DNA from: Tateyamaria sp. ANG-S1
Lineage (GTDB): Bacteria; Pseudomonadota; Alphaproteobacteria; Rhodobacterales; Rhodobacteraceae
Direction of reading: 5' to 3'
DNA length: 64,000 nt
NCBI RefSeq assembly: GCF_000814025.1
Contig: NZ_JWLL01000013.1
Coordinates: 1 to 64,000 of the forward strand
Under the pieces are notes generated by a model. The model ran no database searches, was not told where the DNA came from, and was given only the letters and a program-made list of their open reading frames with translations. Below are positions 1,986 to 40,745 of the stretch, in pieces. Within the stretch, counting starts at the first letter, position 1. The number at the start of each line of letters is the position of its first letter. Made by a program: the position numbers and the translations under genes.

Positions 1986-3644
1986 TCAGAGTTTGCTGAG
2001 CGCCTCTGAGTAATGCTTTGCATAGGCTTTCACAAAGGCGTCCACCATGCCGTTTTCCCCGGCAGCGGCGCGGGAGTTCCATCGTGTGATGAACTCCTCC
2101 CACTGTTTCTTGTTGCCGCCCTTGAGCATACCGCCCCCGCCTGTGTCCGCTTCGATCGACGCAGGGTCGAGGCCCGACATCACTTCGGCCATCGCCGGTT
2201 GAACGGCAGCCATCATCGCGGCCTGGTGCACGCGGATGTCTGTCAACGCATTCTGGAACCCGGCGGCCCCCGTTTGATACCCGCTTCGGGGTTGGACAAA
2301 GAGCGCCTCAAACGCCGCTTCGGGATCAGGCATGAACTTCATCGGATTGTTGCCATCCGCAATGCGCATGGTGCGATCTTCTTGCGTGACGAACAGTTTA
2401 ACCGACGCGCGGTCCTGTAACATCTGCATGATCTCTTGCGTGCAGATGCGGGCGCATTGGCCAAGGATTTTGCCCAGCTCGTGCATGGGAATGTCGAGCG
2501 CGTCCTCACTGTCAATCTCGGCCCCTTCCAAGAACCCAGCAAGGAAAGGATGTGTTTCAGGCACGGGTTCAGGTTCAGGTGCGCGAACATCCGTGTGCGT
2601 TGCCGGCGGCGCGCTGGCCGGAGCGGGCGCAATGGTGCCGGGCGGCGCCGGATTGGCGGGAAAGGGGGTCGGCAGAGGCGTTGGATCGGTGAAGCTTTCG
2701 CCAAGTCCCTTAGGCGGTTGGCTTTCCAGCGCGTCGGCGACAGAGAGCGTCGGGGTCACCACGGGGGGTGGCGTGTTGGGCACCAGGTCTGGTGCCGCTG
2801 GTGCCTGCGGCGACGGCGCATCCGGCATCAGATCAAAATCGTCATCGGGGATGAAAGGCCGCGGCGGCACAGGATCTGCGCCGTCAGTTGAGCCGAATGG
2901 TCCGGTATCGGGTGCCATGGCCGTATTTGGTGCTGGCTCTGGTGCGCGCACGGGATCCGGGGTGCCAACATCTGAGGCACTGTCGTCCTTCATATCCTTA
3001 AGGATCTCAGGGGTATCAGCCGCTTCGATAATGTCATCAACGGGATCGGACTGTGGCGACACCGGATCAGGGGCGCGCATTGATGGGGCCGCGACAACCG
3101 GAGGGTTTGACACCGAAGTATCCTGTGACGGGTTTGCCTTGAAGCGTGCAAGGTCCGGCGTTTGTGCTGCGCTGGCTGCATTTGCTGCGGGCAGGGGCGC
3201 TTTGACCTCGGGCAGGGCGCCGCCATTTATCATTGCCGCCGACGGCGGAGCCTGAACGGCACGCGTGCCGCGCCCCGCACTTGCCGGAGGCACAACGGCT
3301 GGAGGTCGCGTCGGCGCAGCCGCCACAGGCTGGACCAGGGCCTGCAACACATATTGTCCGACCTTGAACCGGTCGCCGCTGGCGATGCGATAAGGGCTGA
3401 CAATCCGTTCGTCCTGCCCTTCAAGGAAGGTGCCATTGGTCGAGCGGTCGTGCAGAAGATATTGCCCATCTTTGAACAGAATATCGAAATGGTGCCCTGA
3501 GATGTGCCGTGTCTGGTCTGGCAGGACCCAGTCATTGCCCGGCTTGCGTCCGACCCGTGCCGCGGCACCCGTAACCTCGAAACTTTGCTGCGTTTCGAGA
3601 TCTTCGGCGGTGTGGCTTTCGATGGTCAGTCTAAGAGCATCCAT
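1986..3644 (-). CDS. tagH1: T6SS-associated FHA domain protein (first of two TagH-like)
   Basis: 552 aa. Residues ~15-105 form a forkhead-associated domain with the phosphothreonine-binding residues in place (VGR, later ISGHH, then STNGTFLEG). Residues ~115-365 are a Pro/Ala/Asp-rich disordered linker. The last ~190 residues match the C-terminal domain of T6SS FHA proteins (HPFLAGFLEGAEID..., then a region ending KQWEEFITRW). Known Fha proteins bind phosphorylated TssL or other PpkA targets and promote T6SS assembly. It follows the DUF6931-like gene with a 40-bp gap and is transcribed away from tssA. A second TagH at 25069-26466 has the same plan, so the two may read different phospho-ligands. 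Confidence 0.9.
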   Translation of the reverse strand: MDALRLTIESHTAEDLETQQSFEVTGAAARVGRKPGNDWVLPDQTRHISGHHFDILFKDGQYLLHDRSTNGTFLEGQDERIVSPYRIASGDRFKVGQYVLQALVQPVAAAPTRPPAVVPPASAGRGTRAVQAPPSAAMINGGALPEVKAPLPAANAASAAQTPDLARFKANPSQDTSVSNPPVVAAPSMRAPDPVSPQSDPVDDIIEAADTPEILKDMKDDSASDVGTPDPVRAPEPAPNTAMAPDTGPFGSTDGADPVPPRPFIPDDDFDLMPDAPSPQAPAAPDLVPNTPPPVVTPTLSVADALESQPPKGLGESFTDPTPLPTPFPANPAPPGTIAPAPASAPPATHTDVRAPEPEPVPETHPFLAGFLEGAEIDSEDALDIPMHELGKILGQCARICTQEIMQMLQDRASVKLFVTQEDRTMRIADGNNPMKFMPDPEAAFEALFVQPRSGYQTGAAGFQNALTDIRVHQAAMMAAVQPAMAEVMSGLDPASIEADTGGGGMLKGGNKKQWEEFITRWNSRAAAGENGMVDAFVKAYAKHYSEALSKL

Positions 3645-3684: not shown

Positions 3685-4278
3685 TCACGAAACGCGCAAG
3701 AGCCCAGCTGCGCGATCCATCATTTGATTTAAGCTGGCGCAGCGGTGGTCTGCATGGGTCTGCCCGATGGCGCGCAAAACCGCACTGCTGATCGCCCGCG
3801 GCGTACGCCAGGCCGGGACCGACACAAGATCGTTCGGCGCCAGCGGCCCACCTGACCACCCAACGGCAAGGCCGAGGTACACAATGGCTGTCTTTCTTGG
3901 AGCAAACAGTGCCATCTGCATCGTTTTCCAGCGGTTTTCGGTGCTTTGATCGTCAAGCCACGCAGCAATCCAATTTACCAACTGCGTGTCTTCCGCCGAC
4001 AAATCCGGCTGCAGATCCAAAATGGAATCAAGTGCCCATTGTATGGCTTCGGGGGTTTCGACCGCAAAACAGATGAAGGTGACAGCGTCTTCTGGCGTTT
4101 GAGAGACGCGAACACGCTGAAAGAAGGCCCTATACCCTTCTTCTGGCGCTGGCCGCTCGGTCATGAACGCGGTGATTTTGTCCATTTCCCGAAACAGATC
4201 ATCGACGCGATCAAAACGGGTGGCCCGAGCCGGGGGCAGCGTTTGTTCGGAATTGAGGTCGTCCATCCAGGTCGTCAC
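3685..4278 (-). CDS. DUF6931-like T6SS-associated protein (copy 1)
   Basis: 197 aa, soluble and acidic at the N-terminus, without signal peptide or membrane segment. It resembles the protein at 24156-24758: both have an Ala-Trp-[LV] helix followed by a D/E-x-x-R helix, an Ala-rich helix ending W/Y-x-x-x-P/G, and a final L-x-x-M-[IM]-D-R-A. I assign DUF6931 from memory of that family near T6SS loci; its molecular role is unknown. GTG at 4278 opens the frame and ATG at 4266 is an alternative; neither has a clear Shine-Dalgarno. It is the first gene of a leftward pair with tagH1, and both copies of this family sit close to a tagH gene, which suggests a role linked to FHA proteins. Confidence 0.7.
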   Translation of the reverse strand: MTTWMDDLNSEQTLPPARATRFDRVDDLFREMDKITAFMTERPAPEEGYRAFFQRVRVSQTPEDAVTFICFAVETPEAIQWALDSILDLQPDLSAEDTQLVNWIAAWLDDQSTENRWKTMQMALFAPRKTAIVYLGLAVGWSGGPLAPNDLVSVPAWRTPRAISSAVLRAIGQTHADHRCASLNQMMDRAAGLLRVS

Positions 4279-5606: not shown

Positions 5607-6122
5607 ATGGCTGGGAGTTCGCAAAAGTTTATTGCCCGTAACCGCGCCCCTCGGGTGCAGATTGAGTACGATGTGGAATTGTATGGCGCCGAGAAAAAGG
5701 TGCAGCTGCCATTTGTAATGGGGGTGATGTCCGATCTGGCCGGAAAGTCAGAGGTGGAACAACCTGCTGTTGCGGATCGCAAGTTTCTTGAGATCGACGT
5801 CGATAACTTTGACGACCGGATGAAATCGATGGCGCCGCGCGCCGCCTTCACGGTTCCAAACACATTGACCGGTGACGGCAACATGGCTGTTGATATCACC
5901 TTTGAGTCGATGGATGATTTCAGCCCGGCAGCAATTGCCGCGAAGGTGGAACCACTGAAGGAATTGCTGGATGCGCGCACGCAATTGAGCAACCTCATGA
6001 CGTATATGGATGGCAAGACCGGTGCCGAGGAGCTGATTGCGAAAATCATGCAGGATCCCGCCTTGCTCAAAACCCTGGCGGCGCAGCCCGCCCCGGCATC
6101 TGACAGCGACGATCAGGAGTAA
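5607..6122 (+). CDS. tssB: T6SS contractile sheath small subunit TssB (VipA/ImpB)
   Basis: 171 aa, normal length for the family. The hallmarks are NRAPRVQIEYDVE near the start, LPFVMGVMSDL, RKFLEIDVDNFDDRM and the VPNTLTGDG segment, followed by the TssC-contacting helices. TssB pairs with TssC to build the cytoplasmic sheath that contracts to drive the Hcp tube. A strong Shine-Dalgarno (GAAGGAGAG) precedes the ATG. It lies 3 bp upstream of tssC. Its sequence is closely mirrored by the first ~155 residues of the giant fusion at 17493-21689, so the two are recent paralogues. Confidence 0.96.
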   Translation: MAGSSQKFIARNRAPRVQIEYDVELYGAEKKVQLPFVMGVMSDLAGKSEVEQPAVADRKFLEIDVDNFDDRMKSMAPRAAFTVPNTLTGDGNMAVDITFESMDDFSPAAIAAKVEPLKELLDARTQLSNLMTYMDGKTGAEELIAKIMQDPALLKTLAAQPAPASDSDDQE

Positions 6123-6125
6123 GAA

Positions 6126-7622
6126 ATGGCCGAGACAGAAACAGAAGCAGCTGGCGCCGCAGGCGCGACCGCCTTTGGGTCCTCGGATTTCGAGAACCTG
6201 CTGAAAAAAGAATTCCGCCCGAAATCGGATCAAGCCAAGACGGCCGTGGAACAAGCGGTCAAAACCTTGGCCGAGCAAGCACTGGCCAATACGTCGCTGG
6301 TCAGTGACGACGCATTGCGCACCATCGAAAGCATTGTTTCCCAGATTGATAAGAAGCTGACCGAACAGGTGAACCTGATCCTGCACCACGAAGAGTTCCA
6401 GCAGCTCGAAAGCGCGTGGCGCGGCCTGCACTATCTCGTCAACAACACCGAGACCGACGAGATGCTCAAGGTTCGGGTGATGAACATCTCGAAGAAGGAC
6501 ATGCACAAGACCCTGCGCAAGTTCAAAGGAACCGCGTGGGATCAATCGCCCATCTTCAAGAAGATCTACGAGGAAGAGTTCGGCCAGTTTGGTGGCGAAC
6601 CCTATGGCACGCTGGTCGCCGATTACCACTTTGACCACAGCCCGCCAGACGTGGAGCTGTTAGGCGAGATGGCCAAGATTGCTGCGGCGGCTCATGCGCC
6701 GCTGATTACAGGGGCCAACCCAACTCTGTTCCAGATGGACAGCTGGTCCGAATTGGCCAACCCGCGCGATCTGACCAAAATTTTCCAAACCCCGGAATAT
6801 GCCGCATGGCGGTCCCTGCGGGAGAGCGAGGATTCCAAATATGTCGGCCTGGCGATGCCCCGTTTCCTGGGCCGTCTGCCTTACGGCGCGGCGACCGATC
6901 CGGTTGAGGATTTCGCCTTTGAAGAAGACACCGATGGTGCAGACAGCAGCAAGTATGGGTGGGTGAATGCCGCCTATGCGATGGCTGTGAACATCAACCG
7001 GTCCTTCAAGGAATACGGCTGGTGCAGCCGGATTCGCGGCATCGAAAGCGGTGGCGCTGTCGAAGGGCTGCCCAGCCACACGTTCCCCACCGATGATGGT
7101 GGTGTGGACCAGAAATGTCCGACAGAGATTGCAATCTCTGACCGGCGTGAGGCCGAATTGGCCAAGAACGGGATGATGCCCCTCATCCACCGCAAGAACT
7201 CGGATCTTGCGGCCTTTATCGGGGCGCAATCCCTGCACAAACCCGCAGAGTATGACGATGACGACGCGACCGCGAACGCCAACCTTGCCGCGCGTCTGCC
7301 GTATCTCTTCGCGACCTGTCGGTTTGCGCATTACCTGAAATGCATCGTGCGCGACAAAGTGGGCAGCTACAAAAGCCGCGATGACATGCAGGCGTGGTTG
7401 CAGGATTGGGTTAACCAGTACGTTGACCTGAACTCCGCAACCTCCCCCGAAGAGGTCAAGGCGCGTCAGCCCTTGGCCGCAGCCGAAGTTGTCGTGGAGG
7501 AGGTCGAGGGGAACCCGGGCTACTATTCGTCCAAGTTTTTCCTTCGTCCGCACTACCAGCTCGAAGGGCTGTCGGTGTCACTTCGGCTTGTCTCCAAGCT
7601 ACCAACCGAGAAGGGGGCGTGA
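6126..7622 (+). CDS. tssC: T6SS contractile sheath large subunit TssC (VipB/ImpC)
   Basis: 498 aa, full family length. Recognisable blocks are ILHHEEFQQLESAWRGLHYLV, the GEPYGTLVADYHFDHSPPD segment, PRFLGRLPYGA, and the C-terminal R-x-A-H-Y-L-K region with the RPHYQLEGLSVSLRLVSK terminus. Together with TssB it forms the contractile sheath, recycled by ClpV. The ATG is preceded by GGAG overlapping the tssB stop. Unlike the TssC-like part of the 1398-aa fusion, this protein keeps the complete C-terminal third, so it is the bona fide sheath subunit. Confidence 0.96.
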   Translation: MAETETEAAGAAGATAFGSSDFENLLKKEFRPKSDQAKTAVEQAVKTLAEQALANTSLVSDDALRTIESIVSQIDKKLTEQVNLILHHEEFQQLESAWRGLHYLVNNTETDEMLKVRVMNISKKDMHKTLRKFKGTAWDQSPIFKKIYEEEFGQFGGEPYGTLVADYHFDHSPPDVELLGEMAKIAAAAHAPLITGANPTLFQMDSWSELANPRDLTKIFQTPEYAAWRSLRESEDSKYVGLAMPRFLGRLPYGAATDPVEDFAFEEDTDGADSSKYGWVNAAYAMAVNINRSFKEYGWCSRIRGIESGGAVEGLPSHTFPTDDGGVDQKCPTEIAISDRREAELAKNGMMPLIHRKNSDLAAFIGAQSLHKPAEYDDDDATANANLAARLPYLFATCRFAHYLKCIVRDKVGSYKSRDDMQAWLQDWVNQYVDLNSATSPEEVKARQPLAAAEVVVEEVEGNPGYYSSKFFLRPHYQLEGLSVSLRLVSKLPTEKGA

Positions 7623-12525: not shown

Positions 12526-15261
12526 ATGACGGAAATCAGCCGGGTCGCGCTGTTTGGCAAGCTGAACAGCCTGGGCTTCAAAGCCATCGAGGGGGCCACA
12601 GTCTTTTGCAAGATGCGCGGCAACCCCTATGTCGAGGTGGTGCATTGGCTGCACCAGATCTTGAACACCCAAGACAGCGATATCCACCACATCATTCAGC
12701 ACTACGATCTGGATGCGGGCAAGATCGCGACCGAAATGACCAAGGCGCTGGATGCCTTACCCCGTGGCGCGTCATCCGTCAGCGACCTGTCTGGTCATCT
12801 TGAGGATGTTATGGAACGGGCCTGGGTCTGGGGATCGCTGCTGTATTCTTCGAACCAGGTGCGGACCGGTCACCTGATCCTTGGGATGCTGAAGACCCCG
12901 AACCTGAAGAACATCCTGATGACCATCTCTCCGACCCTTGCATCGGTGAAGGCGGATGAATTGGCAGATGATTTCCATACGGTGACGGATGGATCGCCCG
13001 AAGATGCGATGCGCCCTCAAGATGGCTCTGTTACCGGAGGTGGGGCAGAACCGGGCGAGGCCAGCGGCGCAATGTCACCGCAAATGGGTGGCCAAGAAGC
13101 GCTGGATCAGTTCTGCACCGATCTGACCGAACAGGCCCGCAACGGAGAGATCGACCCGATCGTGGGTCGCGACGAAGAAATCCGCCAAATCGTCGACGTC
13201 CTGATGCGCCGTCGCCAGAACAACCCGATCCTGACGGGTGAGGCCGGTGTCGGCAAAACGGCTGTCGTCGAAGGGTTTGCCTTGCGCATCGCGCGCGGGG
13301 ATGTGCCACCTGCGCTGCGCGACGTGCGCTTGCTGGTTCTGGATGTGGGTCTGCTGCAGGCCGGCGCATCCATGAAGGGCGAATTTGAAAATCGCCTGCG
13401 CCAAGTGATTGACGAGGTGCAGGCCAGCACCACGCCCATCGTCATGTTTGTGGATGAAACCCATACGCTGGTTGGGGCAGGGGGCGCCGCCGGGACGGGC
13501 GATGCCGCCAACCTGCTGAAACCCGCCCTTGCGCGTGGCACTTTGCGCACAATCGGCGCCACGACATGGGCCGAATACAAAAAGTACATCGAAAAAGACC
13601 CCGCCCTGACCCGCCGCTTTCAGGTGGTGCAGGTGGACGAGCCAGATATCCCGAAGGCCGTGCTGATGATGCGCGGCATCGCGTCGATGCTGGAAAAGCA
13701 CCACAAAGTGCAAGTGCTGGACGAAGGGATCGAGGCGGCTGTCACCCTCTCGGCGCGCTATATCCCCGCGCGGCAATTGCCCGATAAGTCCGTCAGCCTG
13801 CTCGATACCGCTTGCGCACGCGTTGCGGTGTCTCAGCACGCTGTGCCTGCGCAGGTGGATGACAGCCAGCGCCGCATTGAATCGCTGACAACAGAGTCGG
13901 AGATCATTGGACGCGATGAGACCGCAGGCTACGACGTCACCGAACGCCGCGCCACGGTCGAGGCGGCTAAGGCAGAGGAAGAGGAAAGGCTGACAGGGCT
14001 CAAGGCTTCCTGGGAGGCTGAAAAGGCCCTGGTGACCGAGATCATCGACTTGCGCGCACAACTGCGTGCCGGTGGTCAACCCGTTGAGGACACACATACG
14101 CCCGAGGCCATCGCAGCGGACGAGGCTGCAGAGACTGAAGAGGGCGCAGACGCCGCCCTGAGCGACGAAGACCGCGCGGCACTGATGGACAAACTGAAAG
14201 CCAAAAACGCAGAACTGGAAGCGCAACAAGGCGACAGCCCGCTGATCTTGCCCATCGTCGATCATCAGGCCGTTGCCTCGGTCGTGGGCGACTGGACCGG
14301 TATTCCGGTGGGCCGGATGGTCAAGGACGAGATCGAGACGGTTCTGAACCTCGAAGAGCATCTGGCCAAACGTGTGATCGGACAGGATCACGCGATGAAG
14401 ATGATCGCCAAGCGCATTCAGACCAGCCGCGCGGGACTCGACAATCCGTCAAAACCCATTGGCGTCTTCATGCTGGCGGGCACCAGCGGCGTCGGCAAGA
14501 CCGAAACCGCACTGGCGTTGGCTGAGGTGCTGTATGGCGGCGAACAGAACGTCATCACCATCAACATGTCCGAGTACCAGGAAGCACACACCGTGTCCTC
14601 CCTCAAGGGCGCACCGCCTGGATATGTCGGGTATGGCGAGGGCGGCGTGCTGACCGAAGCTGTGCGGCGCAAGCCTTACTCCGTTGTTTTGCTTGATGAA
14701 GTAGAAAAAGCGCACCCCGATGTGCATGAAATCTTTTTTCAGGTGTTTGATAAGGGAGTGATGGAAGACGGGGAAGGTCGTGTGATCGACTTTAAAAACA
14801 CGTTGATCCTTTTGACGTCGAATGCGGGCACGGACCTGATCATGGACCTGTGTTCAGATCCCGACCTGCTGCCCGAACCCGAGGGCATGGCCAAAGCGCT
14901 GCGCGAGCCATTGCTCAAGGTGTTTCCACCGGCCCTGTTGGGACGGCTGGTCGCCATTCCCTACTACCCTCTCAGCCCAGACATGATCGGCAAAATCACC
15001 GTGCTGCAACTGAACCGTATCAAGAAGCGTGTGGAGGCCGCCCATGGCGTGCCTTTCGAATACACGGATGCTGTGGTCCAGGAAATCGTAGACCGCTGCC
15101 AGGAGTTGGAAAGCGGTGGACGCATGATCGATGCCATCGTCACCAACACGATGCTGCCCGACATCTCGGCCGAATTCCTGCGCCGCATGATGGAGGGCGG
15201 CGTGATCAGCAAAGTGTCCATAGATGTGAGCGATCACGCATTCACCTACGGCTTTGAATAG
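12526..15261 (+). CDS. clpV: T6SS AAA+ ATPase ClpV (TssH)
   Basis: 911 aa from the ATG at 12526 (ribosome site AGGGGGA 6-7 nt upstream, 5 bp after tssG); upstream in-frame codons overlap tssG and are not family sequence. There is an N-terminal ClpN-like domain. AAA module 1 has Walker A GEAGVGKT at residues 238-245 and a Walker B with D-E-T-H, where family members usually have D-E-A-H. A coiled middle domain includes an acidic insertion (~ETEEGADAALSDEDR), and AAA module 2 has Walker A GTSGVGKT at 652-659. ClpV threads and dissolves contracted TssB/TssC sheaths for reuse. Confidence 0.95.
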   Translation: MTEISRVALFGKLNSLGFKAIEGATVFCKMRGNPYVEVVHWLHQILNTQDSDIHHIIQHYDLDAGKIATEMTKALDALPRGASSVSDLSGHLEDVMERAWVWGSLLYSSNQVRTGHLILGMLKTPNLKNILMTISPTLASVKADELADDFHTVTDGSPEDAMRPQDGSVTGGGAEPGEASGAMSPQMGGQEALDQFCTDLTEQARNGEIDPIVGRDEEIRQIVDVLMRRRQNNPILTGEAGVGKTAVVEGFALRIARGDVPPALRDVRLLVLDVGLLQAGASMKGEFENRLRQVIDEVQASTTPIVMFVDETHTLVGAGGAAGTGDAANLLKPALARGTLRTIGATTWAEYKKYIEKDPALTRRFQVVQVDEPDIPKAVLMMRGIASMLEKHHKVQVLDEGIEAAVTLSARYIPARQLPDKSVSLLDTACARVAVSQHAVPAQVDDSQRRIESLTTESEIIGRDETAGYDVTERRATVEAAKAEEEERLTGLKASWEAEKALVTEIIDLRAQLRAGGQPVEDTHTPEAIAADEAAETEEGADAALSDEDRAALMDKLKAKNAELEAQQGDSPLILPIVDHQAVASVVGDWTGIPVGRMVKDEIETVLNLEEHLAKRVIGQDHAMKMIAKRIQTSRAGLDNPSKPIGVFMLAGTSGVGKTETALALAEVLYGGEQNVITINMSEYQEAHTVSSLKGAPPGYVGYGEGGVLTEAVRRKPYSVVLLDEVEKAHPDVHEIFFQVFDKGVMEDGEGRVIDFKNTLILLTSNAGTDLIMDLCSDPDLLPEPEGMAKALREPLLKVFPPALLGRLVAIPYYPLSPDMIGKITVLQLNRIKKRVEAAHGVPFEYTDAVVQEIVDRCQELESGGRMIDAIVTNTMLPDISAEFLRRMMEGGVISKVSIDVSDHAFTYGFE

Positions 15262-15287: not shown

Positions 15288-16535
15288 ATGGCCAAACACG
15301 TTGTGATGAACCTGAAGAAGGTTCCCATCAAGGTCAGCGGTCTCGACATCGTGGTGCCGCCAGATCTCAGCTTTAAGGTTGAGGTAGAGCTCGACAAAAA
15401 GATCGCCAAAGAAGCGACGAAAGATCCGCTACTGGTGCAGAAGTTCCAGTCTCAAGCCTCGGAGATTTTGGAGCAGACGAAGGACACCATCGAGAACAAG
15501 TGCAAGGTGTTCGACAAGCTGATCGTCGGGATGATCGACAAAGGTGCCGATGACAAGAAGGTCAAAGCACAGCTGAAGGGTCTGAACGACGCCATCAAGA
15601 ACGACATGAAAGTGGCCCAGAAAGCCGCTGAGCTGGGGGTTCAAAGCACCTGGAAAGAGCTGCAGTCCAAGCGTAAGGAATGGCGCGGTTTCAAGATTAA
15701 GGTTGGCGTGTCCATTGCCGGAACTCTGGCTGGTCTAGCGCTGTCGATCGCAGGGCTTGCAACATCCGGCTTTTCCGGCGGGGTAGGAGGGGTGTTGGCC
15801 ATCGCAGGCTTCATCAAATCCGGCATCTCGCTTGCGCAGGATATCAAGAAGCTGGCCATCGATATCGAAGGCGCCCGAGTGGAGCTCGACGGGCACCTGA
15901 AATTCATCGAAAAGGCCGCCAAGACTAAGGGGCTTTATACCGCAAACGAGGTGGGCGCTGCCGTACTGAACGAGTTCGTGGGCATTTCGCAGCCGTCTAT
16001 CAAATCAGCGCAAGACTGCGCCGATACGATCAAGGCGAAATATGCCCAGATGATCGTCAAGGTCCATGATCTGTCCAAGACACTGGAAAAGATCCTGAAA
16101 GAGCAGCAAAAGGTCAAAAAGGAGTTCCTGACCGAGGCGGCCAAAAGGCTGAAAAAGCACCCCATCAAAGACAAGAAGGGGCAGATGAATAAAATCTCGA
16201 CCGCCTTGGATAAAGAGCTGGATGCGAACTACAAAAAGGTCGACGCACAGATCACCCGCATTCAGCTTATGTACGCGGACACGCGCAAATGGGCCGCCAC
16301 GATCAAGGATCTGTTGAAACGTTTGGCCAAACTGGAACTAAAAGACAGCAAGGGCCTCAAGGTGTTTCGCGAAGTGCTGAAGGCCGTGGGCGCCGCGGCA
16401 GGCGCGATTGACGGAAACTCCGTCGCATCCTCCGCCCAGGAATTGGGCCTCGGTCTGGGCGAGTCCGTGGGCGGCTACGTCTATGACAAGATCTCTAGCA
16501 AGGCGCTGGATGGGACTGTGTTTGACGCCGCCTGA
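15288..16535 (+). CDS. Lys-rich helical protein with central hydrophobic hairpin; candidate T6SS effector or structural factor
   Basis: 415 aa, not recognised as a named family. It is predominantly long Lys/Glu/Ala helices with coiled-coil character (about 38-135 and 235-350), broken by one strongly hydrophobic Gly/Ala-rich segment at 139-185 that looks like a two-helix membrane hairpin. There is no signal peptide. This plan (helical bundle with one internal hydrophobic head) recalls alpha-pore-forming toxins of the ClyA/Hbl/MakA type, but I see no specific motif to prove it. It begins 26 bp after clpV inside the T6SS operon and is followed by the voltage-gated channel gene. It could also be an intracellular assembly or immunity factor. 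Confidence 0.75.
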   Translation: MAKHVVMNLKKVPIKVSGLDIVVPPDLSFKVEVELDKKIAKEATKDPLLVQKFQSQASEILEQTKDTIENKCKVFDKLIVGMIDKGADDKKVKAQLKGLNDAIKNDMKVAQKAAELGVQSTWKELQSKRKEWRGFKIKVGVSIAGTLAGLALSIAGLATSGFSGGVGGVLAIAGFIKSGISLAQDIKKLAIDIEGARVELDGHLKFIEKAAKTKGLYTANEVGAAVLNEFVGISQPSIKSAQDCADTIKAKYAQMIVKVHDLSKTLEKILKEQQKVKKEFLTEAAKRLKKHPIKDKKGQMNKISTALDKELDANYKKVDAQITRIQLMYADTRKWAATIKDLLKRLAKLELKDSKGLKVFREVLKAVGAAAGAIDGNSVASSAQELGLGLGESVGGYVYDKISSKALDGTVFDAA

Positions 16536-16608: not shown

Positions 16609-17496
16609 ATGACCGACGCATCGACAAAGACAGAGACGCTCAAAACCGACGCGGCACCGGACGGTACACTGTCTGTACGCGCAAGGTTGCGGGTGTTTCT
16701 TGAGCAACCAAAGGTTCACAATGCCATCCTGGCCTTGATCATCTTCAACGCCATTACCCTGGGCATTGGGACATCTCAATCGGTGCAGGCCTCAATGGGC
16801 CCACTTCTTCTGATCATCGACAGGATTGTTTTGACGATTTTCGTCATTGAATTGCTGCTCAAGCTTTATGCCTATGGACTAAACTTCTTCCGTAACTCTT
16901 GGAACATCTTTGACTTGTTTGTGGTGAGCGTCGGGTTGTTGCCACAGACCGCTGGCCTGTCGGCCCTGCGTGGGTTGCGCGTGATCCGGGCACTGCGCCT
17001 TTTGTCAGTGATCCCGCAAATGCGAGCGGTTGTGCAGGCGTTGCTGGATGCCTTGCCCGGCATGGGCGCGGTGATCGTCATGATCTCGATCGTGTTCTAC
17101 GTCTTTGGCGTGATGGCCACGATCATGTACGGGGCCAGCTTTGATGAATGGTTCGGCACATTGGGCCGGTCGCTCTATTCGCTGTTCCAGATCATGACGC
17201 TGGAAAGTTGGTCTATGGGCATCGTCCGTCCAGTTATGGAAGTTTACCCTTCGGCTTGGGCTTTCTTTGTGCCCTTCATCGTTATCACCGCGTTTTCGGT
17301 GCTCAATCTGTTCATCGGTCTGCTGGTCAACACCATGCAATCGGCCGTGGAGGAAGAGACCGAAGCCGAGTTTGAAAAGTTGCGTGCCCTTGTCAGGGAC
17401 GAAACCGATCAGGTCGATGCCCATGTGTTGGCCCTGCAGGCCGAAGTGCGAGCCCTGCGCGATGAGCTGCGTGCGGAACGGGACAACAAGGCATGA
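16609..17496 (+). CDS. NaChBac-type voltage-gated cation channel (one-domain, six-helix)
   Basis: 295 aa with one voltage-sensor plus pore unit. S1 is ~38-55 and S2-S3 ~66-110. S4 has Arg every third residue (R121, R124, R127, R130). S5 is ~152-175, and the pore filter TLESWS lies at 197-202, identical to the Na+-selective filter of NaChBac/NavMs-type channels. S6 is ~217-242 and a C-terminal heptad coiled coil spans ~250-292, as in tetrameric bacterial Nav channels. It should be an inner-membrane Na+ (or Na+/Ca2+) channel. Its last four bases overlap the start of the giant TssB/TssC fusion (ATGA), so the two are translationally coupled. I know of no T6SS in which such a channel is an established component. 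Confidence 0.93.
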   Translation: MTDASTKTETLKTDAAPDGTLSVRARLRVFLEQPKVHNAILALIIFNAITLGIGTSQSVQASMGPLLLIIDRIVLTIFVIELLLKLYAYGLNFFRNSWNIFDLFVVSVGLLPQTAGLSALRGLRVIRALRLLSVIPQMRAVVQALLDALPGMGAVIVMISIVFYVFGVMATIMYGASFDEWFGTLGRSLYSLFQIMTLESWSMGIVRPVMEVYPSAWAFFVPFIVITAFSVLNLFIGLLVNTMQSAVEEETEAEFEKLRALVRDETDQVDAHVLALQAEVRALRDELRAERDNKA

Positions 17497-20400
17497 GCAA
17501 CGGGCAGAAATTCATTGCACGCAATCGCGCGCCCCGTGTCCAGATCGAATACGATGTGGAGCTTTATGGCGCAGAGAAGAAAGTACAGTTGCCCTTTGTC
17601 ATGGGTGTGTTTTCCGATCTGTCGGGTAAATCGGAACAGCCACCGATCAACGACCGCAAGTTCCTCGAGATTGACGCGGATAATTTCGATGACCGGATGC
17701 GTGCCATCGCCCCCACGGCCCGGTTTTCTGTGCCCAATACCCTGACAGGCGACGGCAACCTGTCTGTCGATCTGACCTTCAACAAGATGGATGACTTTTC
17801 GCCCGAAGCCATTGCCGAGAACGTCGATGCCCTGCGCCCCTTGCTAGAGGCGCGGCGGCACCTAACCAATCTGACGACGTATATGGATGGCAAGGCCGGG
17901 GCCGAAGCGCTGATCGAAAAGCTGCTGGCAGAGCCCGCGCTTTTGGCTGCGATCAGCGGGGCCGAGGCATCGGACACAGATACCGACGCTGCCCTACAAA
18001 GCCTGCGGGATGCCCTGCCACAGCAGGCGGACACGGCAGATGACAGTGCTGGCGTGGCAAGCACCCTTGAGGCCTTGGCCGCACGCGCCCCTGCCGATGA
18101 CGCCCCTGAGACGGCCATTGACGATGCTCTGAGCACCTTGGCACCGCCCGAAGAGACGCCAGAAGAAGAGGCCCAGAGCGATGCGTTGGCATCCCTTCGC
18201 GATGCTGCCTTGCCTGACGAAGCCCCGGAAGACACCACGGCTGACGTCCTGAACACCATCGCACGGGTTGAAGACACACCTGCACCGGTCGACGCCGCTG
18301 ACGACGTTCTAGCAGGCATAGCACCCGTTGCCGAAACCTCCACTGACGATCCAACGGCTGGAATACTGGATGGCCTGACCTCGGACGCACCCGAGACCGA
18401 ATTGGTGGATGAGACCGCGGACGTTCTGGCCGGAATCGAACATGTCGCCCCCGAGACGGCCAAAGATGACACCAATGATATCCTGTCGGCACTGGACACG
18501 CCTGAGGACAGCCCGGCTGAGGAAGATGCCCTGGACAACATCCTCGGCACCCTCGAACCGGTTGAGGAAGACGATGGCGACACCACGTCCATCCTCGACG
18601 TACTCGACACCGTGGAAGCGCCGGTTGTCCCGGATGAAGACGAGGGCAAGCTGGACGACGTTCTGGGTGGCATCCCCGCGCAGCCTGCAGCGGGCGACAG
18701 CGCTGATCCAATGGACGATATCCTAGCAGGGATCGAGCCCCAAGCTGACACCGCGGACGATGATGACGAGCTGGACGACTTTCTCGCAGGCATCGACACA
18801 AATAGCGTCACACCAGACGGTGAGGCGGGTGACGATCTTGATGATATTCTTGGCGGACTAGACAGCGTTGCAGAGCCTGACCCTGAGCCAGACATGTCCG
18901 ATGTCCTTTCCGGAATCGAAGCGGATGACGTCGCAACCGTTCCTGATACAGAAGCAGACGTGGCAGGGATCCTTGGCGCATTAGAAAGCAGCGAGGAGAC
19001 CGAAGAGGATGCCGAAGATCTGGACGACATCTTGGGCACCCTGGATGCCGTCGACACCAATGCGGAAGAAGGTGACAGCGACAGTATAGGTGACGTTCTG
19101 GCTGGGCTGGAGGCCACAGAGGACACTGCAGAGGATTACGACACCGACCTAGACGATATACTGGGCGGACTGGACGCGCCGGAAGCTGAAGCCGCAGGTG
19201 ATGATCTGAACGATATCTTGTCGGAGATCGACACCTCTGACAACGATGCTTCAGAGGACGAGAACGCACTCGATTACATTCTGGGCGGTCTCGAAACGCC
19301 AGATGCTGAGGCCGCAGGAGAGACAAGCGAGGATTTGGACGACGTTCTTGCCGGAGTGGACACAGCGCATGTTGATCCTGATCAGCCCGCGGATGCGGTC
19401 GAGGACATTCTGGACGGTCTCGATACGGCAGCAACGGAAGAGCCAGACGATGATCTGGATGATATCCTCGCGGGCCTAGACTCCGACGAAGACGATGCGG
19501 CAGAGGACGACGACCCGCTTAAAGACATTTTAGCCGGGCTGGATGCGCCGGACGCAGATCAAGCGGACGATGACCTCGACGATATCCTGGGCGGTTTGGA
19601 CACCGTGGAAGAAGACGCAGCAGAGGACGACGATCCGCTGGGAGATATTCTGAGCGGGATTGATGCGTCAGACGATGAGGACAACGCGAGCGATGATCTG
19701 GACGACATCCTTGCAGGGCTCGACACCGCAGACGAGGACACCTCAGCCGAAAGTGACCCACTGGACGATATTCTGAGTGGCTTTGAAGCTGATGATGACA
19801 GTGCAGGCGACGAAGCTGGCGATGAGTTGGACGATATTCTGGCCGGGCTGGATGACGGCGCGGACGATGGGGGCGACACCGGCCTGGACGACATGTTGTC
19901 AGATATTGATGGCTCCCCAGACCAAGCGCCTGCACCCCAATCACCGTTTGGCAAGATCCTTGCAGATCGCCCCGTACGCGACGATCTGCACCGACCCAAG
20001 TTTCGCATGGCGCTGTTTGGTGATTTCACGGGTAGAGCCTCTCGCGGACTGCTTGACATCGGAGACGCCTTGGCGGCCCGCATCCCCATCGCGCTGGATG
20101 TGGACACGGTCGAAGACCTAATCTCTGACTTTGCAACGACGCTGCACCTCAAGATCGGCAAGGACGGAGAGACGGTTGCTGTGCCGCTCAAGGAATTGGA
20201 CGACCTGCATCCTGATGAACTGTACGACAATATTGAGATGTTCCAGGAAATCGCCGGGCTGCGCCAGCAACTGGGCACAGGGTCGATGGCAGAAAAGACA
20301 ACGAGCCAGCTCAAGACCTGGTCCGAAGCACATGCCACACCGATCAAACTTCCTAAGCGCTCGGCAAGCGCATCAGTCCCGGCCAATCTAAAGTTGAGCG

Positions 20401-21689
20401 ACTTTCAAGCTCTGATCGGCGATACGCGTGGGGATTTGACCCCGGCAGGGCCTGCGGATGATCTGATTGCCCGGATCGTCGGCCCGCATGTCGTCAAGGC
20501 CCCCGATGATGGTGCTGCCGAGATGACGCGCGCAGTTGATGCAGCGCTAAGTTCTGCGATGCGGCTGATCCTGCATCACCCCGATTTCCAGGCCATTGAG
20601 GCACAATGGCGCTCTCTCGATATGCTGGCCCGGCGGATCGAAACTGACAGCACCTTGGAAATCGTGCTGTATGATGTGTCGGCGGAGGAATTGGCCGCAG
20701 ATTTAGCCGCGCAGGAGGATCTGGGCGAAAGTGGTCTGTTCCGGTTGGTCACAGATGTGCTTGACCCCGAAGACGGCGCTGGCGGGTTTTCAGCGCTCTT
20801 TGGCCTTTACACGTTCGAGGAAACACCGACACACGCAGAGCTGTTGGCACGCATCGGGCAGGTCGGGGCGCATGTCGACGCGCCGTTCTTCTCGGCGATC
20901 TCTCCCGGATATCTTGAGACTGAAAAAGAGGATCGCCATCCGCTTGTGGCCGAGGCCTGGGACACGCTGCGCACACTACCAGAGGCCGCGTATCTTGCTC
21001 TGGCCTCGCCCCGCTTTTTGCTGCGGCTGCCCTATGGTGCCAAGTCTGAGCCGATCTACGCGTTCGATTTCGAAGAATTCACACCGCAAGAGGGCCTGAG
21101 CGGGATGTTATGGGCCAATCCGGTAGTCTTGGTCGCAATCCTGCTGGCGGCGACACATAAAAAGGATAGCAAGGCGATGGATCTTGGATCGCTTATGTCT
21201 TTGGGCGATCTGCCGTTTCACTATGTCACCGACCGGCACGGAGATCAGGTGGCCTTGCCCTGTACCGAGCGCAACCTGACGAGCGATGCAGCGCAAAAGA
21301 CCCTTGGTCGCGCCTATATGCCGGTGGTTTGGATGAAGGGCCGCAACGAGATCCGCCTTGGCACGTTCCGGTCCCTTGGTGGTGACGTGATCGCTGGCCC
21401 GTGGGAGGCCGAAGTGCCCGCGCCACGGCCTCGGCCGGGAGACGCCGGTACGACCGTTGAGATGGACATCGCAGCCGGAGACGGTCAGGATGGTGCAGAC
21501 CTCGCGGGTGATATTACCGCGGATGCCGACTTGGGCCTGGACGACCTGCTTTCCGGCAACGACGACAGCGACGATGATGACACATCACTGGATGACCTTC
21601 TGGCTGGGTTTGGCGACGATGACGACGAGGATGGAGGAGATGATGATGACATGGATCCGGAATTGGCTGCCTTGCTGGAGGGCCTTTAA
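17493..21689 (+). CDS. Giant TssB - acidic repeat region - TssB/TssC-like fusion protein
   Basis: 1398 aa. Residues 1-~155 are a close TssB paralogue (NRAPRVQIEYDVELYG, VPNTLTGDG). Residues ~165-810 are Asp/Glu/Ala-rich with ~25 degenerate copies of L-D-D-[IV]-L-[AGS]-G-[LI]-[DE] spaced ~20-30 residues apart. From 837 (FRMALFGDFTGR) a second TssB-like stretch leads into a TssC-like domain with ILHHPDFQAIEAQWRSLDML (~1025) and PRFLLRLPYGA. The TssC part stops after the core and lacks the ~130-residue C-terminal region of normal TssC; it is replaced by another acidic tail with LDDLL motifs. It cannot simply duplicate the sheath subunits and may cap, tether or regulate sheaths. It starts by ATGA overlap inside the channel gene. 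Confidence 0.88.
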   Translation: MSNGQKFIARNRAPRVQIEYDVELYGAEKKVQLPFVMGVFSDLSGKSEQPPINDRKFLEIDADNFDDRMRAIAPTARFSVPNTLTGDGNLSVDLTFNKMDDFSPEAIAENVDALRPLLEARRHLTNLTTYMDGKAGAEALIEKLLAEPALLAAISGAEASDTDTDAALQSLRDALPQQADTADDSAGVASTLEALAARAPADDAPETAIDDALSTLAPPEETPEEEAQSDALASLRDAALPDEAPEDTTADVLNTIARVEDTPAPVDAADDVLAGIAPVAETSTDDPTAGILDGLTSDAPETELVDETADVLAGIEHVAPETAKDDTNDILSALDTPEDSPAEEDALDNILGTLEPVEEDDGDTTSILDVLDTVEAPVVPDEDEGKLDDVLGGIPAQPAAGDSADPMDDILAGIEPQADTADDDDELDDFLAGIDTNSVTPDGEAGDDLDDILGGLDSVAEPDPEPDMSDVLSGIEADDVATVPDTEADVAGILGALESSEETEEDAEDLDDILGTLDAVDTNAEEGDSDSIGDVLAGLEATEDTAEDYDTDLDDILGGLDAPEAEAAGDDLNDILSEIDTSDNDASEDENALDYILGGLETPDAEAAGETSEDLDDVLAGVDTAHVDPDQPADAVEDILDGLDTAATEEPDDDLDDILAGLDSDEDDAAEDDDPLKDILAGLDAPDADQADDDLDDILGGLDTVEEDAAEDDDPLGDILSGIDASDDEDNASDDLDDILAGLDTADEDTSAESDPLDDILSGFEADDDSAGDEAGDELDDILAGLDDGADDGGDTGLDDMLSDIDGSPDQAPAPQSPFGKILADRPVRDDLHRPKFRMALFGDFTGRASRGLLDIGDALAARIPIALDVDTVEDLISDFATTLHLKIGKDGETVAVPLKELDDLHPDELYDNIEMFQEIAGLRQQLGTGSMAEKTTSQLKTWSEAHATPIKLPKRSASASVPANLKLSDFQALIGDTRGDLTPAGPADDLIARIVGPHVVKAPDDGAAEMTRAVDAALSSAMRLILHHPDFQAIEAQWRSLDMLARRIETDSTLEIVLYDVSAEELAADLAAQEDLGESGLFRLVTDVLDPEDGAGGFSALFGLYTFEETPTHAELLARIGQVGAHVDAPFFSAISPGYLETEKEDRHPLVAEAWDTLRTLPEAAYLALASPRFLLRLPYGAKSEPIYAFDFEEFTPQEGLSGMLWANPVVLVAILLAATHKKDSKAMDLGSLMSLGDLPFHYVTDRHGDQVALPCTERNLTSDAAQKTLGRAYMPVVWMKGRNEIRLGTFRSLGGDVIAGPWEAEVPAPRPRPGDAGTTVEMDIAAGDGQDGADLAGDITADADLGLDDLLSGNDDSDDDDTSLDDLLAGFGDDDDEDGGDDDDMDPELAALLEGL
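17985..19930 (+). repeat. Acidic LDDIL repeat array inside the TssB/TssC fusion
   Basis: About 25 imperfect units encode L-D-D-[IV]-L-[AGS]-G-[LI]-[DE] followed by Asp/Glu/Ala-rich spacers. Units become most regular (21-24 residues, ~66-72 bp) between about 19440 and 19900. Codons vary between copies, so the protein motif rather than the DNA is conserved. The run gives long spurious open frames on the opposite strand. Confidence 0.85.
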
Positions 21690-21989
21690 ATGAACGCAAT
21701 GGGAGACATGTCTGACCCAAGGCCAGAGCGCGGTGAGGAACCGGACATCATTTTACTCGGTATCGAAAAAACCAGTTTTTATATGTACAAAGGCGAGAAA
21801 TTTCTGAACCAGCTGCTGTTGTCGGATGGTGAATTTCCAAAACCGGTTTTATGCGTGAATTTTGAAACACTGTTTGATGCAAAGCGTGTTTTGGGCGACG
21901 GATTTTCCCCTGCCACCAGTTGGGCGATCCATCCTGAGATCATAGAGCGTCTGCGCCGGGACGACGACCTGATCGAAACCGACGCTTAA
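21690..21989 (+). CDS. Small protein of unknown function next to the sheath fusion
   Basis: 99 aa, soluble, no signal peptide. A polar start is followed by a compact alpha/beta-looking segment (I-I-L-L-G-I-E-K-T-S-F-Y-M-Y-K-G) and a helical end. I do not recognise the family. The ATG at 21690 directly follows the fusion stop, with GGAGG about 10 nt upstream inside that gene, so expression is coupled; ATGs at 21699 and 21708 are alternatives. It sits 30 bp before vgrG. Possible roles are a partner of the fusion or a VgrG-associated factor. Confidence 0.75.
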   Translation: MNAMGDMSDPRPERGEEPDIILLGIEKTSFYMYKGEKFLNQLLLSDGEFPKPVLCVNFETLFDAKRVLGDGFSPATSWAIHPEIIERLRRDDDLIETDA

Positions 21990-24146: not shown

Positions 24147-24155
24147 GAGGTGGGC

Positions 24156-24758
24156 ATGTCAGATCGTTTCGCAGACCTAAAGAAGATACCGGAACAACCG
24201 GCGGCCCGCCTGTTGGCCGCGGCCAATGCCACGCTGCAAACGCAGTTGAGCGGTCCTGCCAGCACGTCGGTTCCAGATGCTCTGACCGAGCTTGAGACGC
24301 ATCAGGCCTATGTTGATATGGTGCGCCTCTTGTCCGTCTCGTTGCCGCCACGCGAATGTGTCTGGTGGGGTTGTATTGCTGGGCGTGATGTCTTGGGACC
24401 AGATGGCAAAAGCCCCTGCCTAAGTGCAGCAGAGGCGTGGGTGTTCGAGCCAACAGATCCATCGCGCGATAAACTGCAGTCCGTTTTGGAGAGCAGTGCA
24501 ACGGGCGATCCTACATCCTTGTGCGCCACAGCCGCCTTTTATGCGCCCGGCAATCTGGGACCCGGCGAGATGCAGAACCAGCCTGCGCCGGTCGGGATAG
24601 TCAGCTCGTGCTGCTTTGGCATCAACCTCAAGTCGTTGAAACTGGGGCCGGATCCCGAAACACGCTTCAATTTGATGATTGATCGCGCTCTGGACATTGC
24701 GCGCGGCGGGAATGGACAGGTAGAATTGCCCGCAGCAACGCAGGAGGAAACAGTCTGA
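24156..24758 (+). CDS. DUF6931-like T6SS-associated protein (copy 2)
   Basis: 200 aa from the ATG at 24156, which has AGGAGG 5 nt upstream; GTG at 24150 overlaps that ribosome site and is rejected. The core contains PPRECVWWGC, then AAEAWVFEPTDPSRDKLQ, an Ala-rich helix and a final LMIDRALDIARG. It parallels the 3685-4278 protein through most of its length. There is no signal peptide. Its stop overlaps the PAAR start (TGATG), so it is probably produced together with the PAAR tip, and tagH2 follows. The function is unknown; a role in loading or in FHA-linked control is inference from context. Confidence 0.72.
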   Translation: MSDRFADLKKIPEQPAARLLAAANATLQTQLSGPASTSVPDALTELETHQAYVDMVRLLSVSLPPRECVWWGCIAGRDVLGPDGKSPCLSAAEAWVFEPTDPSRDKLQSVLESSATGDPTSLCATAAFYAPGNLGPGEMQNQPAPVGIVSSCCFGINLKSLKLGPDPETRFNLMIDRALDIARGGNGQVELPAATQEETV

Positions 24759-25068: not shown

Positions 25069-26466
25069 ATGCAGATCACACTTCGCTTTCAGTCTACGGG
25101 CAGCATACCCGGCAACGGTGATCCGGTGCAGATGACAGGCATCAGCCTGACCATCGGGCGCGGCAATGAAAATGATCTGGTTTTGCCCGATCCTAACCGC
25201 GAATTGTCCAAGCGCCACTGCGCCATTGAAAACCACAATGGCAACGTCATTGTCGTGGATTTTTCAACCAATGGTACGTTTCTGAATTATGGCAAGCTGG
25301 CTTTGGGCAGCACGCCGACACCTTTGAACACAGGCGATATTCTGTCTGTCGGCCCGTATGAAATTCTGGTCGACATTGCCGCGGACACACCCGCCGACCT
25401 CATTGCGGCCCCTATGGAACAAGAGAAAGTATCGCACGGTTTCGTGCTGAATGCGCCCAGTGCAGCCGACCTTCTGGACGCGCCCGGTGACGGTGGCGAT
25501 TTCCTGGATGACCTTTTGGGGGGACGTGAAGCCGCGCCCAAAGGCCCCCGCGTTGTCAGCCGGGACGAGGCCGAGGATGACGGGTTATTGCCGCCTCTTG
25601 GAGATGATGACGGCCTGCTTGGTCCGGCGCCGGATCCCTTTGCAGGGCAGGGGGCCAGTGCTGGTATGCACAACCCGTCTGCGCAGGACCATTTCAACCC
25701 CGCACCCGCCAGTTTTGGCGGCGGTGCTATTCCTGATGATTGGGACGACGATTTCCTGTCGCCGGTGCAGCCCGCACCGGGCGCACCTGCAGATCCGTTC
25801 GCGGCTGCACCGCCGCCTCCTGTAGCGCCCACGCCCGCGCGACCCGCCGCTGTAGAACGCACAGCCGCGCCCGCTCCAGCCGCCAGCGATGCCGCATCAC
25901 GGGGCTTTCTCAAGGCTCTTGGCGCCGAAGGTGTCGAAGTTAGCCCAGCCGAAATGCCTGAAACGATGACCCGTTTGGGCAAGGTTCTTCGGGCAATGAT
26001 CGAAGGGATGCGCGAAATCCTGATGACGCGCAGTTCGATCAAGTCTGAATTCCGCATCGAGCAAACCATGATCCAGGTGGGGGGCAACAACCCCTTGAAA
26101 TTCTCGATCAGCCCCGAACAAGCGATCGAAGCGATGGTACGCCCCAATGCGCAGGGCTATCTGGAGGCAACCGAAGCGACGGCGCAGGCTCTCAAGGACA
26201 TCAAGGCGCACGAAGTGGCGATGATTACCGGGATGGAGGCTGCCATGAGGGGCATCCTCAAAAAGCTTGATCCCGCAATCCTTGAACAGAAAATCAGCAA
26301 GGACAGTTCGCTCTCGGGTATGCTCAAAAGCCGCAAAGCGCGTTATTGGGAAATCTACGAGAGCATGTATTCCGAAATCTCGGACCAGGCCGAAAACGAC
26401 TTCCAAGAGCTGTTTGCCAAAGAATTCGCCCGCGCCTATCAAGAACAGCTGGACAAACTGAAATGA
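25069..26466 (+). CDS. tagH2: T6SS-associated FHA domain protein (second TagH-like)
   Basis: 465 aa. The FHA domain (~1-100) retains pThr-binding residues (IGRGNENDLVLPD, L-S-K-R-H, STNGTFLN). A Pro/Ala/Asp-rich linker (~115-270) contains FLDDLLGG, resembling the LDD[IL]L motifs of the 1398-aa fusion. The C-terminal ~190 residues are the T6SS FHA C-terminal domain (GFLKALGAEGVEVSPAEM... ending in a helical region with ARYWEIYESMYSEI). It should read PpkA-phosphorylated partners and license assembly. It is encoded with the core genes, 28 bp before tssK, whereas tagH1 is divergent. Confidence 0.92.
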   Translation: MQITLRFQSTGSIPGNGDPVQMTGISLTIGRGNENDLVLPDPNRELSKRHCAIENHNGNVIVVDFSTNGTFLNYGKLALGSTPTPLNTGDILSVGPYEILVDIAADTPADLIAAPMEQEKVSHGFVLNAPSAADLLDAPGDGGDFLDDLLGGREAAPKGPRVVSRDEAEDDGLLPPLGDDDGLLGPAPDPFAGQGASAGMHNPSAQDHFNPAPASFGGGAIPDDWDDDFLSPVQPAPGAPADPFAAAPPPPVAPTPARPAAVERTAAPAPAASDAASRGFLKALGAEGVEVSPAEMPETMTRLGKVLRAMIEGMREILMTRSSIKSEFRIEQTMIQVGGNNPLKFSISPEQAIEAMVRPNAQGYLEATEATAQALKDIKAHEVAMITGMEAAMRGILKKLDPAILEQKISKDSSLSGMLKSRKARYWEIYESMYSEISDQAENDFQELFAKEFARAYQEQLDKLK

Positions 26467-40214: not shown

Positions 40215-40745
40215 TCAAAAACGGAACGACACCTTTTTTGCACCTGCCGTCAGTTTGCTGCTGTCGACTGGCTTTGAGACACGAACCGCACGCAGGAACT
40301 CTTCAAACGACTTGGCAACGAGCGTCAGCGCCTCGGGGCTGCCTTCGCCTTGCAGGCATTCATGGTGCCAAAATTTGACCTGCTTGTCCGCTGGATCCCA
40401 CACGAACAGGTTCCCCAGACCATCATCAGCAAAGGGCAACGGTTTGCCAAAAAACCGATCGCGATAGTCATCACTTTTCTTTGCGATGCCCAGCTTTCCC
40501 GAGGCCATGCCAAAAATTTGCAGGATCGCCAGTTTACCCTCAGCACTAAAGGATGGCGGCGGTGTGATGGCCTTGACCTCGACGCCATCCACAAATCGCA
40601 ACGCGCGGTGGTCGTTCTTGAACAGGTCAAAAAGGCCATCCGGACCTGCAAATCCAAGCAGGTTTTCCAATTGATCGCGGCGATACACTGCCTCTTCGTC
40701 ACCGATATCGAAGTGTTTGGTTTTGACATCCGATTTAAATGTCAT
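40215..40745 (-). CDS. SMI1/KNR4 (SUKH) family immunity protein
   Basis: 176 aa. The SUKH pattern is visible: an N-terminal L-G-F-A-G helix with L-F-x-x-N/H, the I-F-G-M-A-S-G region and a C-terminal FADDGLGNLFVWDPADKQVKFWHHE block with the conserved G-x-x-x-x-x-D. SUKH proteins are common antitoxins against diverse polymorphic nuclease and deaminase toxins. No partner toxin lies next to it, so it is an orphan in the immunity run downstream of the EndoU toxin. Confidence 0.88.
   Translation of the reverse strand: MTFKSDVKTKHFDIGDEEAVYRRDQLENLLGFAGPDGLFDLFKNDHRALRFVDGVEVKAITPPPSFSAEGKLAILQIFGMASGKLGIAKKSDDYRDRFFGKPLPFADDGLGNLFVWDPADKQVKFWHHECLQGEGSPEALTLVAKSFEEFLRAVRVSKPVDSSKLTAGAKKVSFRF

Follow-up and report, generated by a model that had tools for sequence, protein, structure and literature searches.

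The single-chain sheath proteins of phages and of extracellular contractile injection systems are known from structures to polymerise. In type VI secretion systems (T6SSs), the sheath subunits are TssB (VipA) and TssC (VipB), and the Agrobacterium protein TssC40 (ImpD) is reported to be required for Hcp secretion, with TssB still accumulating in its deletion (PMC3702570). Here we describe a gene, F, within a T6SS operon of Tateyamaria sp. ANG-S1, in a stretch of 64,000 nucleotides (the window; positions 1 to 64,000 of contig NZ_JWLL01000013.1, forward strand). F (17493–21689, + strand) is a single open frame of 1398 amino acids (aa) that combines, in order, a TssB domain, an acidic motif array, a TssB/TssC body that probably lacks the handshake strands, and an acidic tail. 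We read F tentatively, with a probability of roughly 0.35, as an accessory T6SS scaffold built of sheath parts, the mechanism of which we infer.

A first-pass annotation of the window had seen in F a near-complete TssB copy, a second TssB-like stretch and a TssC core without the C-terminal ~130 residues present in the operon TssC, and this list of parts was borne out with corrections. The N-terminal domain (aa 9–155; 17517–17957) matched Pfam T6SS_VipA over profile positions 2–151 of 155 (7.5e-60 for the protein) and passed the TssB model TIGR03358 with 191 bits against a cut-off of 97.25 (profile 1–154 of 160). The second stretch (20001–20273) matched the VipA family (PF05591) with an E-value of 2e-5 from profile position 28 on, and thus without the N-terminal part (profile 1–27) that contains the beta-1 strand; in seven relatives the corresponding match starts at positions 25–28. 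Pfam VipB was found at aa 1011–1287 (20523–21353; 2.1e-39), and VipB_2 was detected by Pfam neither in F nor in any of the seven relatives, whereas the normal operon tssC (6126–7622, +), which follows the normal tssB (5607–6122, +), encodes both VipB and VipB_2 (1.4e-43). F scored 131.3 bits with the TssC model TIGR03355, under its cut-off of 271.5, and about 125 residues of TssC are missing, given that the operon TssC has 498 aa and its VipB match ends at residue 371.

The TssC-like part was examined for the TssC fold with the Protein Data Bank (PDB) as the structure library, and the VipB core fold was found in the C-terminal half of F. This half is not a damaged TssC but forms a family of its own, whose fold appears to be that of a sheath body held in a single chain; in this respect the earlier description of it as a truncated TssC is corrected. 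Strands beta-11 to beta-13 presumably lie in the VipB_2 (gpW/gp25-like) domain, and alignment suggests that the C-terminal body of F is without handshake strands. Judged in this way, its strand content argues against polymerisation of the C-terminal half by strand exchange.

Among 292 genomes of the same order, 29 (the source included) had a match of at least 544 bits that extended into the C-terminal body; a further two, G053 and G082, matched weakly, at ~138 bits. A profile search of named genomes, from which 80 loci were kept as the best of at least 559 relatives, probably counted ordinary TssC among the 559. In total, 102 loci that differ from one another in C-terminal sequence had the body: 62 in the TssB form (including L053 and L081, whose TssB has diverged), 28 without TssB, and 12 cut at the 5' end. 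Outside this set the family seems to be sparse. At class level, 52 of 289 genomes matched, but only the source genome and G661, the frame of which holds one stop, had a match that starts no later than model position 17; the remaining matches begin no earlier than position 74 and fall for the most part within the TssC-like region. In 40 T6SS clusters drawn from across the phylum, the 20-kb stretch around clpV did not contain the body. Forms without TssB came also from metagenome-assembled genomes (MAGs) of Planctomycetota and Verrucomicrobiota. One such gene in Ruegeria conchae is labelled in RefSeq merely as contractile sheath large subunit. A match on a Vibrio plasmid (H13/L150) was discarded, since the search had merely joined ordinary tssB and tssC genes that lie side by side.

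Recurrence of the TssB form in 62 of the 102 distinct loci ruled out an assembly artefact, to which the first-pass annotation had given thought. The DNA of the array contains one repeat family, with 14 copies of 25 nucleotides, of which the other 13 have 68–88% identity to the reference copy; this divergence argues against a collapsed or falsely expanded repeat. That F is a functionless decaying duplicate, or an artefact after all, is extremely improbable: in three loci that fall into a single tree group TssB has degenerated or disappeared, but an open frame and invariant residues are maintained over many genomes and several phyla, and this conservation disfavours decay.

Two relatives (L059:8855–10345 and L061:8805–10280) are stand-alone bodies without a tail. 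The open reading frames (ORFs) around L059, read by eye, look unrelated to T6SS, and each of the two genomes has a T6SS of the same type without F elsewhere (L060 and L062, respectively). Short forms bearing the tail motif were found in L142 (Siccirubricoccus) and L133 (a Spartobacteria MAG); of the ORFs near them, 20 were scanned over both loci, which is not all of those present, and none was recognised as a T6SS gene.

A body tree of 102 rows was built by a quick method and rooted on the two divergent stand-alone rows, and it includes long branches. Forms without TssB were basal in this tree, and the TssB form fell within one group of 84 rows with 100% SH-aLRT support; the TssB label required at least 6 changes, compared with 24 in shuffles. 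The body family is apparently older than the TssB form, and the tree may be read as a gain of TssB followed by several reversions. When the TssB domains of 62 F copies were placed in a tree with 36 from operon copies, the F label needed 3 changes, and the F copies may have a single origin. Among 32 F sequences picked for a good TssB match, 20 of the N-terminal positions 5–26 were invariant or nearly so; these conserved positions agree with the operon TssB, which also has in common with F a large part of the helix region close to the C-terminus. The N-terminal segment overlaps residues 8–29 of HsiB1, which are described as conserved in systems with TagJ (PMC4239648).

The array of F (aa 166–817; 17988–19943) has 652 residues, with 157 D and 66 E against 3 K and 4 R, a composition that suggests disorder; predicted models of aa 166–220 and 777–817 contained short helices of low to middling confidence. 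We scored a strict motif, LDD[ILVFM][LI][ASG][GED][ILVF], together with middle and loose patterns, against 1000 shuffles. The array has 11 strict copies (shuffle mean 0.003, maximum 1 in 1000), 15 middle-pattern copies (mean 0.08, maximum 2) and 21 loose copies (mean 0.73, maximum 5), with 2 further loose copies in the C-terminal tail, and the spacing of motifs in the array is mostly 19–22 residues or about double that. The estimate of ~25 L-D-D-[IV]-L-x-G units in the first-pass annotation was thus close for degenerate copies and overstated for exact ones, of which the array has 9 by eye.

Related motifs occur in the tail, where F has LDDLLAGF at aa 1366–1373 (21588–21611) and ends with LAALLEGL at aa 1391–1398 (21663–21686), both of them conserved. 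In an alignment of 56 sequences, L590, D591, L593 and L594 were invariant or nearly so, as were L615, A617, L618, L619 and L622 at the end. The tails of short forms, including those from Planctomycetota and Verrucomicrobiota MAGs, contain 1–4 middle-pattern copies, typically LD[DA]LLA[GS][FL]; the exceptions are L059 and L061, which have none. The array may therefore consist of amplified copies of the C-terminal tail motif of the body family.

A long linear element between two sheath-type ends might also set the length of the sheath, in the manner of a ruler or tape measure. Linker length, however, ranged between 170 and 1210 residues in 63 loci, four F proteins of the same genus differ by up to 337 aa, and sheath length in V. 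cholerae is reported to correlate with cell size; a ruler is very improbable. Another function that might be served by such an acidic protein is that of a chaperone or buffer of sheath subunits, which would hold soluble TssC (via TssB) or Hcp and limit premature polymerisation. Acidic regions often accompany chaperones, and F has such regions; its complete TssB, moreover, is not fused to a TssC that is complete. We nevertheless regard this function as quite unlikely, given that it leaves the conservation of the tail motif in short forms without TssB unexplained.

A similar motif, FLDDLLG, was found in the linker of the Fha protein encoded after F (fha/tagH, 25069–26466, +), at 25501–25518 or about aa 145–151 by eye. 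It is common in Fha linkers of this T6SS lineage and resembles the F repeats: among full-length ORFs, it was present in 57 of 64 Fha proteins of F loci, 3 of 4 from Rhodobacterales clusters without F, and 2 of 15 from other T6SSs, with a chance expectation of ~1% per linker from shuffles of the window Fha linker. The window has a second Fha gene at 1986–3641 (−), the product of which is one of the 7 motif-less Fha ORFs of F loci, so that only the 25069–26466 protein carries the motif. In related loci outside the window, the motif was not found in TssK, TagJ, operon TssB, TssE, DUF6931, ClpV or the channel, and it was rare in TssA (4/32), TssC (1/47), the 99-aa ORF (1/26) and the 415-aa ORF (2/28). 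The presence of the motif in both F and Fha points to a common partner. The idea that the Fha motif is a general replacement for the LLDEII helix in TagJ-class systems was not supported as a rule, given the figure of only 2 of 15 outside F-bearing and Rhodobacterales-type clusters.

One candidate for this partner is ClpV, encoded at 12526–15261 (+; start placed by eye at MTEISR). F might act as a recruiter or decoy, with motifs that imitate the N-terminal TssC helix (LLDEII) and gather ClpV hexamers, the outcome being either faster recycling of sheaths or retention of ClpV away from extended sheaths. The motif resembles helices known or proposed to bind ClpV (VipB LLDEIM, HsiC2 ILDSII and HsiC3 LLDEII), and the weak affinities reported for single helices (26 and 39 µM) would suit a multivalent array; in addition, the operon TssC has DFENLL in place of the helix motif. 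When the F repeats are set against the pattern [LI]LDx[IV][IVM], the LDD[IL]L core fits, but the first hydrophobic position mostly does not, being acidic or polar in most repeats, and a common core of only about five residues could reflect chance likeness. The operon ClpV also has R6 and D87 (by eye), a class reported to be incompatible with such a helix. This last point is not decisive, because ClpV1 of enteroaggregative Escherichia coli (EAEC), whose groove is bordered by charged residues, is reported to bind a helix of this kind. We consider a role of F as ClpV recruiter or decoy rather unlikely.

In the scaffold model that we prefer, the TssB domain of F would co-assemble with ordinary TssC and so bring F into or onto the sheath, and the C-terminal body would dock beside or at the end of the sheath or baseplate. 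This body would neither accept nor donate the next ring and so would not propagate; the interpretation in the first-pass annotation, that F could add to a sheath end but probably not propagate it, is partly supported. The short amphipathic LDD[IL]L motifs of the array and tail would each bind weakly, and together multivalently, to a partner among the cytosolic T6SS proteins that also recognises FLDDLLG of Fha. The hexameric N-domains of ClpV are one candidate for this role as well, because TssC helices of the LLDEII type are reported to bind them weakly and an array would supply avidity. The ancestral unit would have been a handshake-less sheath body with a docking tail motif, to which TssB and the array were later added, raising avidity and anchoring the body.

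Several findings weigh against the scaffold model. The predicted model of the N-terminal TssB was poor, with a mean pLDDT of 66.8 and residues 1–43 under 50. L050 retains the array and body without an N-terminal TssB, and L053 and L081 retain them with only a diverged TssB (41% and 34% identity, respectively); anchoring by TssB is therefore not essential everywhere. The tail motif is missing from the stand-alone relatives L059 and L061. In seven TssB-form loci the linker is shorter and holds 0–2 middle-pattern motifs; the counts in L132 and L054 are 0 and 2, respectively, although a channel gene is present there. Finally, Fha carries the motif also in clusters without F, so that the motif is not specific to the function of F.

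The gene directly upstream of F (16609–17496, +) overlaps it as ATGA, the stop of the one running into the start of the other. Its product has an Ion_trans domain (PF00520, 4.3e-40), and its best match in the PDB (3.7e-79) is an entry that we take to be NavMs. The selectivity filter TLESWSM is present in this protein and in 59 of the 60 channels examined, and by sequence the gene encodes a channel of the NavAb/NavMs type. Little is known of what bacterial Nav channels do physiologically. A channel gene lies directly upstream in 55 of the 62 TssB-form loci (54 found by script, and L072, which the gap rule missed), with 50 of 54 gaps between −17 and +8 bases. It accompanies 6 of the 28 loci without TssB, once on the opposite strand, and was found within the stretch examined in none of 49 T6SS loci without F, 6 of them Rhodobacterales clusters of the same gene order. 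Channel and body occur also on Leisingera plasmids of about 108–110 kb.

This arrangement could mean that the sodium-channel-like protein has its cytoplasmic partner in F, which would couple the T6SS to membrane potential or to the entry of sodium. Gene adjacency does not equal interaction, however, and a channel gene is missing, within the stretch examined, from 22 of the 28 loci without TssB and from 7 of the 62 with the TssB form, so that F can exist without one; on balance, we think such a partnership unlikely. Less probable still, and a long shot, is a cassette of two genes through which membrane voltage, or sodium entering locally, would act on the T6SS and gate its firing electrically. 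The channel would open when the membrane depolarises, as might happen in a cell under attack, and F would be held at the sheath by TssB, capping or docking with its handshake-less body; altered binding by the polyacidic array would then release or recruit the sheath machinery. An apparent tie between array and channel was also considered, the density of middle-pattern motifs being 0.15 per 100 residues in the 7 channel-less TssB-form loci and 1.24 in the 56 others (including L050, which lacks TssB). All 7 loci belong to one 10-row tree group, the other three rows of which are short forms, so that the low density is not independent evidence; for this reason, and because L132 and L054 do not fit, the tie was not upheld.

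In the operon, F is preceded by genes for TssA, TssB, TssC, Hcp, TagJ, TssE, TssF, TssG, ClpV, a 415-aa ORF and the ion channel, and is followed by those for a 99-aa ORF, VgrG, DUF6931, PAAR, Fha, TssK, a DotU/OmpA protein, TssM, TagF and a PP2C-type phosphatase. The 99-aa ORF (21690–21989, +) begins directly after the F stop, is present in a subset of clusters, and gave no Pfam or PHROGs match. The 415-aa ORF (15288–16532), between clpV and the channel gene, encodes a glycine-rich hydrophobic stretch and had no match in Pfam, NCBIfam or PHROGs; similar or very diverged ORFs occupy this position in part of the clusters. The T6SS region encodes two DUF6931 proteins (3685–4275, −; 24150–24755, +). 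Downstream of the T6SS genes, a 1305-aa protein (35433–39350) without a Pfam or PHROGs match is followed by a SUKH-family ORF (40215–40742, −), possibly an effector-immunity arrangement. The source genome has a second T6SS (L191, contig C2), in which two separate TssC-like frames match the body profile, as in ImpC/ImpD systems.

The occurrence of F next to a channel gene in Roseobacter-related marine bacteria suggests a previously unknown way of anchoring or controlling the T6SS. It indicates that T6SS sheath parts have been reused to make an accessory protein that is conserved and bears a multivalent array of motifs, and that NavAb/NavMs-type channels accompany an entire group of marine T6SSs. 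The link to T6SS, if true, would give bacterial Nav channels a concrete and testable role. As a natural and probably polymerisation-incompetent sheath body, F should also be of use in the study of sheath-end capping, recycling and ties to the envelope.

The first-pass annotation knew of no described protein of this architecture, and none was found in the literature searched, whose coverage leaves out most subscription journals; nor did that literature yield a relevant link between T6SS and sodium channels. Phage and extracellular single-chain sheaths share 7–14% identity with F among the matches listed, and the F body would differ from them in lacking the handshake parts by alignment; 5 records of a phage collection matched, none over 80% of the query, and the body had no PHROGs match. 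Like ImpD/TssC40 of Agrobacterium and Rhizobium T6SSs, F is a TssC paralogue in an alphaproteobacterial T6SS operon. An identity of its C-terminal half with that protein was rejected, since the Rhizobium ImpD compared (one R. beringeri protein, L149, recognised as ImpD from its position between tssC and tagJ) retains VipB_2 and contains nothing like TssB, F being the reverse on both counts; if this protein is typical, Agrobacterium ImpD would also be of a different type from F. The upstream channel shares its Ion_trans domain and filter with known NavAb/NavMs channels, but here belongs to a T6SS operon and overlaps F. With regard to the ordinary sheath subunits, the N-terminal domain of F is TssB by score, whereas the C-terminal half has the core fold of TssC but neither its VipB_2 domain nor a score above its cut-off, and the two stand on one chain with an acidic array. 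The architecture and the pairing with a channel are thus undescribed as far as literature searches reach, and their parts come from the sheath and channel families.
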